Below the pieces are notes generated by a model, which worked only from the letters and a program-made list of their open reading frames with translations, was not told the DNA's origin and did no database searches. DNA of 64,000 nt, from contig NZ_CP032100.1 in assembly GCF_003544815.1 (NCBI RefSeq), forward strand, positions 1,364,001 to 1,428,000, read 5' to 3'. The DNA comes from Arcobacter suis CECT 7833 (GTDB lineage Bacteria; Campylobacterota; Campylobacteria; Campylobacterales; Arcobacteraceae). Made by a program: the position numbers and the translations under genes. Positions 5,140-14,245 of this stretch are shown here, in pieces (the stretch's first letter is position 1; every line of letters starts with the position of its first letter).

Positions 5140-5513
5140 TTTTGATTAATTAACTCTTTAAAAATTGCTCCATCTATTTGAGCTTTTGCAGTTTGTTCAA
5201 ACTCTTCGTTTGAATTAATGATTACAAGATTTTTAGAATCATACATATAATTATCAGCAATTTTTTGTATTTGTGTCGCTAAATCATTTTCTGAAATTAT
5301 ATATTTCGCATTTAAATTATTACTATAAATTGCATCTTTTATTGATGTTACAATAACAGCTGATGAAAGTTCATTTTCGTAAGAATATTTTAATAATTCA
5401 AGATTATAAAAAAATAGAAGTGTTGAATTTGCTTTTGTATTTACTATTTCTTCTATACTTGAAACAAAAAAAATATTTTCATAAGGTAAATTTTTATCCC
5501 CTAAAATAATCAT
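5136..5513 (-). CDS. Conserved hypothetical protein, 125 residues
   Basis: A soluble alternating alpha/beta pattern with segments such as STLLFFYNLELL, AVIVTSIKDAI and NLVIINSNEEF resembles a Rossmann or receiver-like fold, but no phosphoacceptor or nucleotide motif is evident. It sits between the PP0621-like zinc protein and the tetraheme cytochrome on the same strand and overlaps the latter by four bases. Position in the rsmG operon suggests a housekeeping role. Function is unknown. Confidence 0.75.
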   Translation of the reverse strand: MIILGDKNLPYENIFFVSSIEEIVNTKANSTLLFFYNLELLKYSYENELSSAVIVTSIKDAIYSNNLNAKYIISENDLATQIQKIADNYMYDSKNLVIINSNEEFEQTAKAQIDGAIFKELINQK

Positions 5514-5523
5514 AAAAAGCCTT

Positions 5524-5742
5524 TTATTTATTCTCTAAACACTCTTTTGAGCAATAAAATTTTCCATTACTCAAAATAGCTTCTTTTTGTGAAACATAAG
5601 TTTTACAAGTTGGACACTCTACCATTTCATCTTCGATTTTTTCATTTTTTTTAGTGATAATATCTTTTTCTCTAGTTTTTTTAAAAAAAAGAATATAAGC
5701 TAAAAATGCCATTATTACAACTGCAATTATTTTTAAAACCAT
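5524..5742 (-). CDS. PP0621-like membrane-anchored zinc-ribbon protein
   Basis: 72 residues: one N-terminal membrane helix (IIAVVIMAFLAYILFF), a charged linker, then a metal-binding module with CPTC and YCSKEC. This is the architecture of the PP0621 family, small inner-membrane proteins of unknown role with a cytosolic zinc site. Its ATG shares one base with the rsmG stop (TAATG), indicating coupled translation. Confidence 0.82.
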   Translation of the reverse strand: MVLKIIAVVIMAFLAYILFFKKTREKDIITKKNEKIEDEMVECPTCKTYVSQKEAILSNGKFYCSKECLENK

Positions 5743-6326
5743 TATTTGCCTTTTATATAAAGATAATTTCTATCTTTTCTATTTACTATTTTATAATCAT
5801 TTATTTTTGCTATTTCTATTTCTGATTCAAGCATTGAACCTTTATAGAAAAGATATGAACTATTTTCTTTTTTAATATTTTTTGTAATATCTAAAAGTAA
5901 AGAAGTGTTTGTAACTGCTCTTGAAGTTATCAAATCAACTTGTAAATTTTTAACCTGCTCTACTCTACTACAAATAACTGTTAAATTATCTAGTTTTAAA
6001 GAAGCTTTTACAAAATTTAAAAAAGATACTCTTTTTATTCGAGGTTCTATTAAATATGATTTCATATCTCTTAAAGCCATTGCAAGTATAAGTCCTGGAT
6101 AACCAGCACCCGTACCAATATCTGCAAAACTTTCATATTTTTCTATAAAATTTAAAGGAAATAAAGAGTCCAAAATATTTTCTTCAATATCACTTCGTGT
6201 GAGTCTTCCACTAAGATTATGAACCATTCCCCATTGTTGAAGTAGTTTTATAAAAACATCACAATCTTCGTAGAATTTATCTTCAAAAAAGAGGTTGTTT
6301 TCTTCTAATAATTGTTTAAAAATCAT
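5742..6326 (-). CDS. rsmG: 16S rRNA (guanine527-N7)-methyltransferase
   Basis: 194 residues with the SAM-binding loop FADIGTGAGYPGL, the following acidic strand YLIEPRIKR, and the family motif LITSRAV. RsmG methylates G527 of 16S rRNA. The gene shares single-base TAATG junctions with ribA upstream and the PP0621-like gene downstream, forming a tight operon ribA-rsmG-PP0621-hypothetical-cytochrome. Confidence 0.95.
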   Translation of the reverse strand: MIFKQLLEENNLFFEDKFYEDCDVFIKLLQQWGMVHNLSGRLTRSDIEENILDSLFPLNFIEKYESFADIGTGAGYPGLILAMALRDMKSYLIEPRIKRVSFLNFVKASLKLDNLTVICSRVEQVKNLQVDLITSRAVTNTSLLLDITKNIKKENSSYLFYKGSMLESEIEIAKINDYKIVNRKDRNYLYIKGK

Positions 6327-6901
6327 TAAAGAATATGCCCCATTTGTTCTTTTTTAGTTAATAAATAACCTTCGTTATATTTATTTGATTTAGTGATTGC
6401 AGGAATTCTTTCCGCAATCTCTATTCCTAATGATTCAACATACTCAATTTTTTTAGGATTATTAGTTATTAGTTTTAACTTTTTCACACCTAAATCTTTA
6501 AAAATATGTCCAACTATAGAGTAATTCCTATCATCTTCACCAAAACCTAATTCTAAATTTGCTTGAATTGTGTTTCTTCCTTGGTCTTGAAGTGCATAAG
6601 CATTTACTTTATTTACTAAACCTATGTTTCTACCTTCTTGTCTATGGTAAATTACTAAACCACCCTGCTCTGCAATAAATTTTAATGATAAATCTAATTG
6701 ATTTTGACAATCACACTTTAAACTTCCAAGTGTATCGCCTGTTAGGCACTCTGAGTGAATTCTTACAAATGGAGAATCAATGTTTTCAAAATCTTGACTC
6801 ATAATTGCCAAATGTTCTTGATTGCCATCTTTGTAAGCTTTTATTTTGAATTTTCCGTATTTTGTAGGTAAGTTAGCTATATTTGATTGTATTATATTCA
6901 T
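6326..6901 (-). CDS. ribA: GTP cyclohydrolase II
   Basis: 191 residues. The zinc cluster CLTGDTLGSLKCDC and the following HRQEGRNIGL catalytic segment are intact, as are the substrate-binding GFGEDDRNY and LITNNPKKI blocks. RibA opens GTP to start riboflavin synthesis. It supplies the activity that the degraded second domain of RibBA (680-1711) lacks. It is divergent from hemB across a 59-base gap. Confidence 0.97.
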   Translation of the reverse strand: MNIIQSNIANLPTKYGKFKIKAYKDGNQEHLAIMSQDFENIDSPFVRIHSECLTGDTLGSLKCDCQNQLDLSLKFIAEQGGLVIYHRQEGRNIGLVNKVNAYALQDQGRNTIQANLELGFGEDDRNYSIVGHIFKDLGVKKLKLITNNPKKIEYVESLGIEIAERIPAITKSNKYNEGYLLTKKEQMGHIL

Positions 6902-10662: not shown

Positions 10663-11339
10663 AAAAAGAGTTGTTGAAAAACCTAAAAATCTTAATTGTA
10701 GAAGATGAAAAAAGATTAGCTCAATTGCTAAAAGATAGTATTTCTAACTCTTTCTTTTCTGTTATTATTGCTTCAAATGGAGAAGATGGTCTAAAAAAAT
10801 TTAAAAGCTTTAAACCTGATATTATAATAACAGATATTATGATGCCTTTTTGTGATGGATTGGAAATGACTTTACAAATAAAAGAGTTAGATGAATCTAT
10901 TCCAATTATAGTTTTAAGCGCCCATTCTGATAAGGAAAAACTTTTAAAAGCTATTGATTTGGGAATAAATAAATATTTTATCAAACCTTTTGATCCAGAA
11001 GAATTACTTGAACATATAAATAAATTAGCATTAAAACTAAATAAACAAAAACAATCAAAACTAAAAGAAGATTTTATTTTTGATAACAATTCTTTATCTT
11101 TGTACAAAAATAATAGTCTTATTAGTTTAACAAAAAGAGAAAAAGAGCTATTTTATCTTTTAATCAAACATAAAAATCAATTGGTTACTACTCAAGATAT
11201 AAAAGAAAATCTTTGGAACAGTGAAGTAAATGATGAAGCCTTAAGAACTTTTATAAAAAGAGTTAGAATAAAAACATCAAAAGATTTAATTGAAAATGTT
11301 TCAGGACAAGGATATTTAATTTCTGTATTGGATGTTTAA
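10659..11339 (+). CDS. OmpR-family response regulator
   Basis: 226 residues: a receiver domain with VEDEK, phospho-acceptor Asp in IIITDIMMPF and the conserved Lys in FIKPF, then a winged-helix DNA-binding domain (LTKREKELFYLLIKHK, GQGYLI). It is coupled to the PAS kinase at 9427-10662 by a four-base overlap. Its last 24 bases overlap the end of nrdG on the opposite strand, so the two transcripts converge. Confidence 0.94.
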   Translation: MKKELLKNLKILIVEDEKRLAQLLKDSISNSFFSVIIASNGEDGLKKFKSFKPDIIITDIMMPFCDGLEMTLQIKELDESIPIIVLSAHSDKEKLLKAIDLGINKYFIKPFDPEELLEHINKLALKLNKQKQSKLKEDFIFDNNSLSLYKNNSLISLTKREKELFYLLIKHKNQLVTTQDIKENLWNSEVNDEALRTFIKRVRIKTSKDLIENVSGQGYLISVLDV

Positions 11340-12008
11340 AATATTACTTTTTACTTTTTCTTTATTTATAGGTCTTGAAGATTGAATATTTCCTATATTT
11401 GATGAGGTTTCAAGGAAATTTTGTAAATAATATGTATTTTTATAACCCAAAGAAGAAATAGTTTCTATCATAGAATTTATATCATTTTCATCTAAAAGGG
11501 AAGTATTTATAGTAGTTCTTAACTCAAAATCAAAATCTATTTTTATTAAATATTTTATAGTATCTATAAATTTTTCATAAAAATCTGTTCCTGTTAAGTC
11601 TTTAAATTTATACTTTGGAGCTTTAAAATCAATAGCCATATAATCAATTAATTCCAAATCTATCATCTCTTTTATCTGTTTTTTATTTGTAGCATTTGTA
11701 TCAAGTTTGATTTTGAAACCTAAGTTTTTTATCTCTTTACAAAAAGGAATAAGATTGTGAATGGTAGCTTCTCCACCTGAAAGAACTACTGCATCAAGAA
11801 GACCAACTCTTGTTTTTAAAAAATCTAAAACATCTTTAAAACTATATTTCCCTTTTTTTGTATAAACTATATTATCATTATAGCAATACAAACATCTAAA
11901 ATTACAAGAAACAAACCAAATTATGCAAGATATTTGTCCTTCATAATCTGTTGTTGTAAATTTTGTTAAATCATATATTTTTTTTTCATTGGCAATTATT
12001 TGATTCAT
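11316..12008 (-). CDS. nrdG: Anaerobic ribonucleoside-triphosphate reductase activating enzyme (radical SAM)
   Basis: About 230 residues. The radical-SAM cluster motif CNFRCLYC, the SAM-binding VLSGGEAT and a later FKLDTNA-type strand (KIKLDTNATN) identify a NrdG-type activase. It uses SAM to install the glycyl radical on NrdD. I place the start at ATG 12008; an in-frame TTG lies one codon upstream. It begins inside the 3' end of the small glycyl-radical frame (11986-12153), so nrdD, the radical tip and nrdG are translated as a coupled set. Confidence 0.92.
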   Translation of the reverse strand: MNQIIANEKKIYDLTKFTTTDYEGQISCIIWFVSCNFRCLYCYNDNIVYTKKGKYSFKDVLDFLKTRVGLLDAVVLSGGEATIHNLIPFCKEIKNLGFKIKLDTNATNKKQIKEMIDLELIDYMAIDFKAPKYKFKDLTGTDFYEKFIDTIKYLIKIDFDFELRTTINTSLLDENDINSMIETISSLGYKNTYYLQNFLETSSNIGNIQSSRPINKEKVKSNILNIQYRN

Positions 12009-12153
12009 CAAACTTCACCCTTTGGATATGTTCACCTTTTTTTCCTATGTTAAAACTTTCAACTGGTCTATGGTAACCCATAACCCTAGTATAAACCATA
12101 CATTTAGTTCTTTTTCCGCTATTTTTTTCAAGCAATTCTTGTTTCTTTGTCAT
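11986..12153 (-). CDS. Separate glycyl-radical C-terminal piece of NrdD, 55 residues
   Basis: This short frame encodes KRTKCMVYTRVMGYHRPVES followed by FNIGKKGEHIQRVKF. That is the C-terminal radical loop of NrdD, with the radical Gly at residue 26 in RVMGY. In ordinary NrdD this segment follows the CPKC zinc ligands in one chain. Here it lies in the +1 frame relative to the main nrdD gene and overlaps it by 26 bases. It has its own Shine-Dalgarno GGAG with seven-base spacing. Removing one A from the six-A run at 12158-12153 would fuse the two frames. It could be a separate subunit, a slippage product, or a recent frameshift. Confidence 0.82.
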   Translation of the reverse strand: MTKKQELLEKNSGKRTKCMVYTRVMGYHRPVESFNIGKKGEHIQRVKFDESNNCQ

Positions 12154-14245
12154 TTTTTAGCTCCTTTTTTAAGATTTCTTCATCACATTTTGGACAATAT
12201 TCATGTTCACCTTGTAAATATCCATGTATTTGACAAACTGAAAATAAAGGCGTAACCGTAATATAGGGAAGTTTATAGTTTGTAATTACATTTTTAACAA
12301 AATTCCTACAAGCTTCTATGGATGAAATCTTTTCTTTCATATACAAGTGAAGTACCGTTCCACCAGTATATTTACACTGTAATTCATCTTGTAAATCAAG
12401 TGCTTCAAAAGGGTCATCTGTATAATCAACTGGTAATTGAGAAGAGTTTGTATAATATATATTACTATTAAAACCACCTTGAATAATATCTTTGTACCTT
12501 TTTTTATCCTCTTTTGCAAATCTGTAAGTTGTACCTTCTGCTGGTGTTGCTTCAAGATTATAAAGATTTCCAGTTTCTTCTTGAAATTTAATCATCTTAT
12601 CTCTCATAAAATCTAAAATTTCTATACAAAAATCATTTCCAATAGGTGAAGATAAATCTATATTTTCTCCGAAATAGTTTTTAAGCATTTCATTCATTCC
12701 ATTTACACCAATTGTTGAAAAATGGTTATTAAAGTTGGGTAAATACCTTTTTGTATATGGATAAAGACCTTTATCATACATATCTTTTACAAAAACTCTT
12801 TTTTTCTCCAATGTTGATTTAGCCAATTGCATTAGTTCTTCAAGTCTTAAAAGTAAAGCATTTGGATTGTTTTTGTATAAGTATCCAAGTCTTGCCATAT
12901 TTATAGTTACCACTCCAATACTTCCAGTCATTTCAGCACTTCCAAACAATCCACCACCTCGTTTTAAAAGCTCTCTTAAATCTAGTTGTAACCTACAACA
13001 CATACTTCTTACATGTCCTGGTTTATAAGCTTTTTCATTTTCGATTTTATTTCCATTTTCATCTTTTATATATTGACTTCCTATAAAATTCTGAAAATAA
13101 GAACTCCCTATTTTTGCTGTATTTTCAAATAAAATATCACTGTTTTCTCCATACCAATCAAAATCTTCTGTAATATTTACAGTTGGAATTGGAAAAGTAA
13201 AAGGTTGTCCGGTTTTATCACCTTGGGTCATAACTTCATAATATGCTTTATTTATTTGATTCATCTGTTTTTGAAAATCTTTGTAAGTTAATTGTTCAAA
13301 AGATTCATAACCTTTTTGTTTTATCAAAGCCAATAATTCTTCATCTTTGAAATCTTTGAATAAATGTTGTTGATTTCTTGTTGGAATTTGATCTTTTAAA
13401 TCAGCAGGAACCGTCCAATCAATAGTAATATTTGTAAAAGGACTTTGTCCCCAACGTGCAGGTACATTTAGATTATAAATAAAACTTCTTATGGCTTTTT
13501 TTATCTCTTTATATGATAATTTATCCTTAAAAACATAAGGTGCAAGATATGTATCAAAACTACTAAAAGCCTGAGCACCAGCCCATTCACTTTGAAGTAT
13601 TCCTAAAAAATTTGCCATTTGTCCTAAAGCTTCTCTAAAATGATTTGGAGCAGAACTTTCAACTCTTCCTCTAACTTCATTAAATCCCTCATCCAATAAA
13701 ACTCTCAAAGACCAACCTGCACAATAACCGCTTAAACAATCCAAATCATGGATATGATAATCAGCATTTCTGTGGGCATAACCCTCTTCTTTTGAATAAA
13801 CTAAATCAAGCCAATAGTTCGCTATTATTTTTCCTGCACTATTATTTATAAGTCCAGCGTGAGAATATCCAGTGTTTGAATTTGCTTTTATTCTCCAATC
13901 ACTTCCATTTATATATTCTTGAATAGTTTGAGTTGAATTAATATAAGTTGTATCTTTTTGAACTTGAAGCACAAGTTCTCTTTGGATTTTATGTAAATGT
14001 CTATATAAAATAAATGACTTCATAACATCAAAATATCTACTTTTGTAAAGCTCTTTTTCTATAATATCTTGAATATCTTCCACAGCAACCAATCTTTTTT
14101 GTTTTATTTCAAATAAAACATTAAAAAATACAGATATATCATATTTTGTATTTACACTTTTAAATGCTTTTTTTATTGCATCTTCTATTTTATAAGATTC
14201 AAATTCTTGTTTATTTCCATCTCTTTTTAAAATTGTTTCAATCAT
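12128..14245 (-). CDS. nrdD: Anaerobic ribonucleoside-triphosphate reductase, main chain without the radical loop
   Basis: 705 residues. An N-terminal ATP-cone (residues about 1-95, starting ETILKRDGNKQEFE) is followed by the ten-stranded barrel region with WGQSPFTNITIDW, RSMCCRLQLDL (candidate thiyl Cys) and GSAEMTGSIGVVTINMARLG. The chain ends with zinc ligands in CQIHGYLQGEHEYCPKC and a short tail. It lacks the glycyl-radical loop, which is encoded in the overlapping frame 11986-12153. It makes dNTPs without oxygen, with NrdG as activator. No class I reductase genes are in this window. Confidence 0.93.
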   Translation of the reverse strand: MIETILKRDGNKQEFESYKIEDAIKKAFKSVNTKYDISVFFNVLFEIKQKRLVAVEDIQDIIEKELYKSRYFDVMKSFILYRHLHKIQRELVLQVQKDTTYINSTQTIQEYINGSDWRIKANSNTGYSHAGLINNSAGKIIANYWLDLVYSKEEGYAHRNADYHIHDLDCLSGYCAGWSLRVLLDEGFNEVRGRVESSAPNHFREALGQMANFLGILQSEWAGAQAFSSFDTYLAPYVFKDKLSYKEIKKAIRSFIYNLNVPARWGQSPFTNITIDWTVPADLKDQIPTRNQQHLFKDFKDEELLALIKQKGYESFEQLTYKDFQKQMNQINKAYYEVMTQGDKTGQPFTFPIPTVNITEDFDWYGENSDILFENTAKIGSSYFQNFIGSQYIKDENGNKIENEKAYKPGHVRSMCCRLQLDLRELLKRGGGLFGSAEMTGSIGVVTINMARLGYLYKNNPNALLLRLEELMQLAKSTLEKKRVFVKDMYDKGLYPYTKRYLPNFNNHFSTIGVNGMNEMLKNYFGENIDLSSPIGNDFCIEILDFMRDKMIKFQEETGNLYNLEATPAEGTTYRFAKEDKKRYKDIIQGGFNSNIYYTNSSQLPVDYTDDPFEALDLQDELQCKYTGGTVLHLYMKEKISSIEACRNFVKNVITNYKLPYITVTPLFSVCQIHGYLQGEHEYCPKCDEEILKKELKNDKETRIA

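Follow-up and report, generated by a model that had tools for sequence, protein, structure and literature searches.

The stretch of DNA analysed here (hereafter the window) comprises 64,000 nucleotides of the complete 2.64-Mb genome of Arcobacter suis CECT 7833 (contig NZ_CP032100.1, positions 1,364,001 to 1,428,000) and carries on its minus strand an operon for anaerobic ribonucleotide reduction, in which nrdD (12128-14245) is followed by a 55-amino-acid frame (11986-12153) and then by nrdG (11316-12011). The NrdD chain, 705 amino acids long and ending in ...CQIHGYLQGEHEYCPKCDEEILKKELKNDKETRIA, comprises an ATP-cone, a catalytic barrel, an MCCR motif (residues 415-418, at 12992-13003) and, at its C-terminal end, the zinc-ribbon ligands C671, H674, C684 and C687 (12185-12235), and is devoid of a glycyl-radical loop. 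This loop, RVMGY, is encoded by the 55-amino-acid frame (YTRVMGYHRPVESFNIGKKGEH), here called the tip and predicted to be a separate glycyl-radical subunit, in which the codon of the expected radical glycine, G26, occupies positions 12076-12078. The tip gene is preceded by a GGAG ribosome-binding site (12161-12164), seven bases 5' of its ATG at 12153, overlaps nrdD by 26 bases (12128-12153) and has a run of six A residues at its start (12158-12153). The nrdG gene, which encodes a radical-SAM activase of the NrdG2 type, starts at TTG 12011 or ATG 12008 and ends at 11316, its overlap with the tip gene thus being 26 or 23 bases. The end of the NrdD chain after its zinc ligands, the 55-residue frame with RVMGY, its ribosome-binding site, the overlaps with nrdD and nrdG and the A run had been described in an earlier reading of the DNA (the original prediction), and every number in that observation was borne out.

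Profile searches place both pieces within one protein family. The body (the 705-residue chain) matches the Pfam NRDD model (PF13597) over positions 2-529 of 562 (536 bits), while the tip covers positions 528-562 (E-value 4e-7), both over the curated cut-off. As the two match adjoining parts of a single model, the 55-residue frame is not a product of chance. The body also matches the ATP-cone (PF03477), NF006126 (1080 bits, positions 2-661 of 684) and TIGR02487 (405 bits), the latter two over their cut-offs, and NrdG matches TIGR02495 (187 bits, over cut-off), so that an activase is encoded alongside, as expected of class III ribonucleotide reductases. The zinc ribbon stands ahead of the radical loop, as is also typical of this class, with C671 and C684 present in all 75 aligned rows and H674 and C687 in 74 of them. 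The loop itself, in class III enzymes part of the same chain as the barrel, is here reached only when the two chains are taken together. In the alignment, tip G26 falls on the glycine of the radical loop of fused NrdDs, a position occupied by glycine in 50 of 51 rows, and the tip retains all nine of the most conserved residues of the fused NrdD tails (R720, G723, Y724, R726, N732, G734, K735, E738 and R742, numbered as in the joined chain). The body carries RSMCCR and GGGLFGSAE, in agreement with subgroup NrdDh4 of Aurelius et al. 2015 (PMC4493059), for which MCCR instead of SCCR and a finger-loop phenylalanine are given; the phenylalanine of GGGLFGSAE is probably the one meant. The genome of the window contains no PF01228 glycyl-radical domain according to a Pfam profile search, and the tip is therefore probably its only glycyl-radical piece.

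A structure model of the joined body-tip chain, based on 75 alignment rows, reached a predicted local distance difference test score (pLDDT) of 88.7 and a predicted template modelling score of 0.84, the tip blocks scoring 85-91 and the joint 63. It superimposes on the Prevotella copri NrdD 8p2s_B (model residues 88-746, root-mean-square deviation 2.5 Å over 549 residues) and on the Thermotoga maritima NrdD 4u3e_B (96-750, 2.9 Å over 543 residues). The glycyl-radical domain of the P. copri enzyme spans residues 676-739, with the radical at Gly711 (PMC11226230), and the superposition suggests that the tip would fill this very place. A Foldseek search gave class III ribonucleotide reductases in 36 of the 50 rows shown, most of the others being class I, and a PDB profile search with the tip alone gave no match at E-values up to 1. 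An alternative alignment (A2), in which the tip rows were scattered, was set aside.

The original prediction had proposed a comparison of the nrdD-nrdG junction among relatives as a check, and in the family of the window (Arcobacteraceae) the split indeed proves to be fixed. PF13597 is matched in 87 of 104 family genomes, 84 of the 104 carry this type of body plus a tip at an E-value of 1e-18 or better, and an 85th (G013) has a weak tip match only. A continuous body-tip frame of this NrdD type was seen in none of the 84, which is the reverse of the outcome that had been named as refuting the split, i.e. relatives all having one continuous chain; in two family genomes (G044 and G060) body and tip are in the same frame with stops between them. 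At the level of the order, 219 of 398 genomes gave a match, and the matches listed consist mostly of bodies ending near position 530, of pairs that share a frame but are interrupted by one to three stops, and of fused forms of another type.

The junction was examined in 245 loci, of which 165 are distinct split junctions, 23 duplicates, 45 loci without the exact motif, nine tips without a visible body end and three fused forms. In almost all cases the tip gene is placed between nrdD and nrdG, the genes overlapping, and the body ends at TAA in 80, TGA in 72 and TAG in 13 of the 165 split junctions. The spacing between body and tip ranges from an overlap of 47 nucleotides to a gap of 852; the start codons of the tips were picked by a rule (Shine-Dalgarno sequence first, then distance), which makes the overlaps approximate and leaves the frame offsets unaffected. 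A strong Shine-Dalgarno sequence precedes the tip in 92 of the 94 distinct Campylobacterales junctions, in line with the conserved ribosome-binding site that the original prediction had asked for, and in only 21 of 71 within a mostly Bacteroidota set (L175-L299); weak use of such sequences is expected for Bacteroidota. Among 94 distinct tip sequences, whose pairs are not independent, the proportion of synonymous differences (pS) is 0.56 and that of nonsynonymous differences (pN) 0.135, a pattern reversed in the other two frames, and the tip is thus under purifying selection. The split pairs also have a longer connection between zinc ribbon and loop than the fused forms: a median of 17 residues of body tail plus a median of 19 tip residues before YTRVMGY, as opposed to a linker of 2-14 residues by motif match (the 2 comes from L267, where it is an artefact of the motif match and 6 is likelier). 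The body tail and the leading part of the tip may form a docking interface.

Three explanations had been offered for the arrangement: a split two-subunit enzyme, slippage at the A run yielding a mixture of forms, and a recent frameshift. The junction data bear strongly on the last two. If programmed frameshifting, transcript slippage or read-through of a stop joined the frames, the fused chain would be the real enzyme, and such recoding would find some support in the six-A run at the start of the window tip, in the occurrence of such a run close to where the tip begins in 62 of the 165 junctions and in some Campylobacter and Flavobacterium loci where the pieces are in frame with a single stop between them. 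However, the constant offset and slippery site expected of programmed frameshifting were not found, since the tip lies at offset 1 relative to nrdD in 103 junctions, at offset 2 in 41 and at offset 0 in 21, and varies likewise within the window's family (56, 16 and 6 of 78 junctions, respectively). The run is missing from 103 of the 165 junctions, two open reading frames separate body from tip in L015, L017 and L018 (one of them NifU-like by our own reading), and tips occur alone on viral records. No single recoding event could serve junctions so varied in frame, distance, interposed genes and A runs, and together with the strong Shine-Dalgarno sequences this renders recoding, slippage included, very improbable. 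Even less credible is a recent frameshift or sequencing error in a fused gene, or a decaying gene. Fused relatives do exist and one family genome (G098) looks decayed, but the split is common to the whole family and found in four phyla, the tip is maintained by selection, and RefSeq has independently annotated small, separate nrdD genes. Of the three explanations the two-subunit enzyme is accordingly the one left standing, with strong support from the conservation of separate genes, their occurrence in all three frames and the purifying selection.

Split forms occur repeatedly across Campylobacterota, Bacteroidota, Balneolota and Pseudomonadota. In a scan of named genomes with a tip pattern, which favours split forms and is silent on the frequency of fused ones, the best 80 of 585 loci were kept and comprised 77 split pairs and three tips with no body in reach; these 80 belong to Campylobacterota, Bacteroidota (with tips in Flavobacterium, Algoriphagus, Cecembia and Marivirga), one Balneolaceae genome and a few oddly labelled metagenome-assembled genomes. 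Among 247 Bacteroidota genomes 15 exceeded the NF006126 cut-off, seven of them split and eight fused. Plasmids contribute as well: from 30 plasmid records with a body match 14 loci were taken, ten of which are split (Sulfuricurvum, Cereibacter, Cupriavidus necator, Paracoccus, Bradyrhizobium, Thiothrix, Sulfuricystis, Azospira, Shinella and Aquabacterium), three fused (Actinomyces, Acidiphilium and Geoalkalibacter) and one assigned to neither class. A fifteenth plasmid locus, on pAt1 of Allochromatium tepidum, holds a lone tip annotated as nrdD (L256:2460-2645), flanked by genes for a zinc-finger protein and a DUF4942 protein and with no adjoining body. On the Azospira plasmid pAZI09 (L296:1-2441, 5380-6537) the nrdD-tip-nrdG set is situated inside the gene pair for the alpha and beta subunits of a class I reductase. 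Plasmid pHG1 of C. necator H16 carries the split pair H16_RS32680 and H16_RS32675, with a body of 676 amino acids (76,191 Da) followed after 142 nucleotides by a 66-residue tip, and the glycine at residue 650 of this body lies in the zinc region and not in the radical loop. A 1999 paper on pHG1 of Alcaligenes eutrophus reportedly described a 76.2-kDa NrdD and discussed its G650.

A tree of 63 bodies, obtained by a quick method and with long branches flagged, separates 51 split rows together with the fused Acidiphilium, Actinomyces and G335 from eight fused rows and Geoalkalibacter, whose body is unlabelled in the tree and has a fused loop in its own sequence. The split clade contains no fewer than three fused forms (L045, Acidiphilium L263 and Actinomyces L261). 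The tree requires a minimum of four changes between the fused and the split state, and a reduced tree agrees with it. The approximately unbiased test rejects both a tree in which a single branch has all split rows on the same side (p 0.0023) and the grouping of L045 with the outside fused rows (p 5e-6). If the root is among the fused forms, this fits one old fission followed by three re-fusions, the latter being expected of partners that work together.

Tips are also found in phages. When IMG/VR was scanned for tips, 53 loci were obtained, of which 51 lack a body within the locus, and 46 of the 48 viral records searched whole are without an NrdD body, although the records are fragments and its absence is therefore not proven; the remaining two (G461 and G491) carry a split pair, and in one of the 46 (G475) the tip itself falls below the profile threshold. 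Among the neighbouring genes are those for holin, endolysin, tail sheath, head closure and DNA polymerase. By profile and partly by eye, the tips of L163, L165, L169 and L172-L174 adjoin scaffold- and capsid-like genes and those of L122, L127, L136, L141 and L145 endolysin or lysozyme genes. The tips match positions 110-157 of 179 in the PHROG family phrog_4132, which is of unknown function, and this match provides a likely identity for the C-terminal part of its proteins. One family genome (G051) has, in addition to its operon tip, a second tip in a prophage-like stretch. In five phage tips (L161, L164, L167, L168 and L171) the invariant glycine before the lysine of GK is coded by TGA, as expected if these phages read TGA as glycine (genetic code 25). 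A survey of viral NrdDs classified 89 loci by a crude motif rule as 57 fused, 21 split (four of which, L335, L358, L369 and L381, are doubtful), six with no tip seen and five unclassified. In two large phage contigs (L301:3971-6871 and L310) NrdD is a 967-residue frame with an intein-like insert directly after the cysteine of the conserved LTGYC, and no tip was seen beside either, while several phage NrdDs (L342, L346, L347, L351, L353-L357, L359, L360, L364-L366 and L368) have a C-terminal extension that by eye is thioredoxin-like (QAPTLV).

Taken together, gene arrangement and sequence conservation indicate that the window very probably encodes a class III (anaerobic) ribonucleotide reductase as two translated pieces, with the tip acting as a separate subunit. 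The 705-residue body would supply the cone that binds nucleotides, the catalytic barrel and the zinc ribbon, and the tip, translated from a ribosome-binding site of its own within the operon, the radical glycine. NrdG would generate the radical on Gly26, and the tip would dock into the body without a covalent link, so that its loop enters the barrel close to the CCR cysteines, as it does in fused NrdDs. Several observations weigh against this reading or blunt the evidence for it. The case is made here entirely from genes, sequence comparison and one joined-chain model, and this model, for which the two pieces were joined and fused NrdDs were included in the alignment, speaks for the fit of the pieces and not for their association; with only 29 alignment rows the same chain gave a pLDDT of 68 (42-50 in the tip), and that model was set aside. 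Two family genomes (G036 and G069) hold another, fused type of NrdD with 24-25% identity to the window body, one (G052) ends at a contig edge, others split between contigs (such as G025 and G039) leave the junction out of view, and in G098 (L119) the tip has no radical loop and nrdD and nrdG are fragmentary, so that this locus looks to be decaying. The relatives are not independent, and their counts overstate the evidence. Lastly, the genome of the window also encodes a class I/II large subunit (PF02867), and the cell need not depend on the two-piece NrdD.

Oxygen cleaves every glycyl radical enzyme at the glycine that bears the radical, and the organisms concerned are largely microaerophiles and denitrifiers, for which an exchange of tips would pay. 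We infer that the radical-bearing piece of the two-subunit enzyme is exchangeable, this being the best reading of the data. Oxygen would then cut only the tip, and a cut tip would be swapped for a fresh one with no need to remake the body. The loose phage copies together with the separate tip gene suggest a replaceable radical cartridge, and it is proposed, tentatively and at somewhat short of an even chance, that the tip is a disposable part, whereby oxygen destroys only 6 kDa while the 80-kDa body is kept, and that phages bring tips of their own to reload the host enzyme in the course of infection; both repair in trans and this purpose of the phage copies are putative. Alternatively, the tip is a dedicated and fixed subunit which folds once with the body and is never exchanged, has no role in repair and travels on phages as mere cargo. 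The position of the tip gene between nrdD and nrdG, with overlaps, would suit such a 1:1 co-assembly, and tip exchange is, after all, something we infer. Single tips on the body-less viral records, the lone tip of the Allochromatium plasmid and the second, prophage-borne tip in a family genome that also has the operon are less easily explained in this manner, and a fixed subunit, while a real possibility, is on balance doubtful.

If the cartridge reading is true, a glycyl radical enzyme besides pyruvate formate-lyase would have its own spare-part system. According to PMC8683613, YfiD and Y06I are the only validated spare parts and others may exist for further glycyl radical enzymes, which would make this a case foreseen there. 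A natural two-piece reductase in microaerophilic and denitrifying bacteria, with tips on phages, makes the spare-part question testable. The findings also warn that in these phyla the radical subunit of NrdD is overlooked or wrongly named in annotation: several small tip genes are already named nrdD by RefSeq (e.g. SULKU_RS15355 and H16_RS32675, which correspond to the separate tip gene and bear the name anaerobic ribonucleoside-triphosphate reductase), a name that is automatic and states no radical-subunit role. The proteins of phrog_4132, the C-terminal part of which resembles the tip and for which PHROG gives no function, would likewise gain a likely identity. In the open-licence literature searched, no mention was found of an NrdD whose glycyl-radical part is a subunit of its own; a few further papers or RNRdb may describe one.

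Among the closest known systems is the NrdDh4 group of class III NrdDs (PMC4493059), with which the window shares the barrel, ATP-cone, MCCR motif, zinc ribbon, adjoining NrdG and conserved loop; the difference is that the loop resides on a separate 55-residue protein, while the accessible portions of that paper describe it as C-terminal in NrdD and mention no split. The split class II enzyme NrdJa/NrdJb is likewise a ribonucleotide reductase encoded by two genes, with a C-terminal zinc-finger part apart from the rest, but it is B12-dependent, uses no glycyl radical and is split elsewhere in the protein, as far as described in the available parts of PMC9669993. Also close are GrcA/YfiD of Escherichia coli and Y06I of phage T4, which serve pyruvate formate-lyase as autonomous glycyl radical cofactors (PMC8683613, PMC12338860). 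Like these, the tip is a small, free-standing, loop-bearing protein that would complete a large enzyme and is carried by bacteria and phages alike, and in this respect the comparison with GrcA/YfiD made in the original prediction holds, whereas membership of the same family does not, the tip matching only PF13597 (NRDD) in Pfam and not Gly_radical (PF01228). The best reading is thus that the tip works like the spare part GrcA/YfiD from outside its Pfam family, with the distinction that, as the window body has no loop of its own, the tip would be a normal part of the enzyme and not only a spare.

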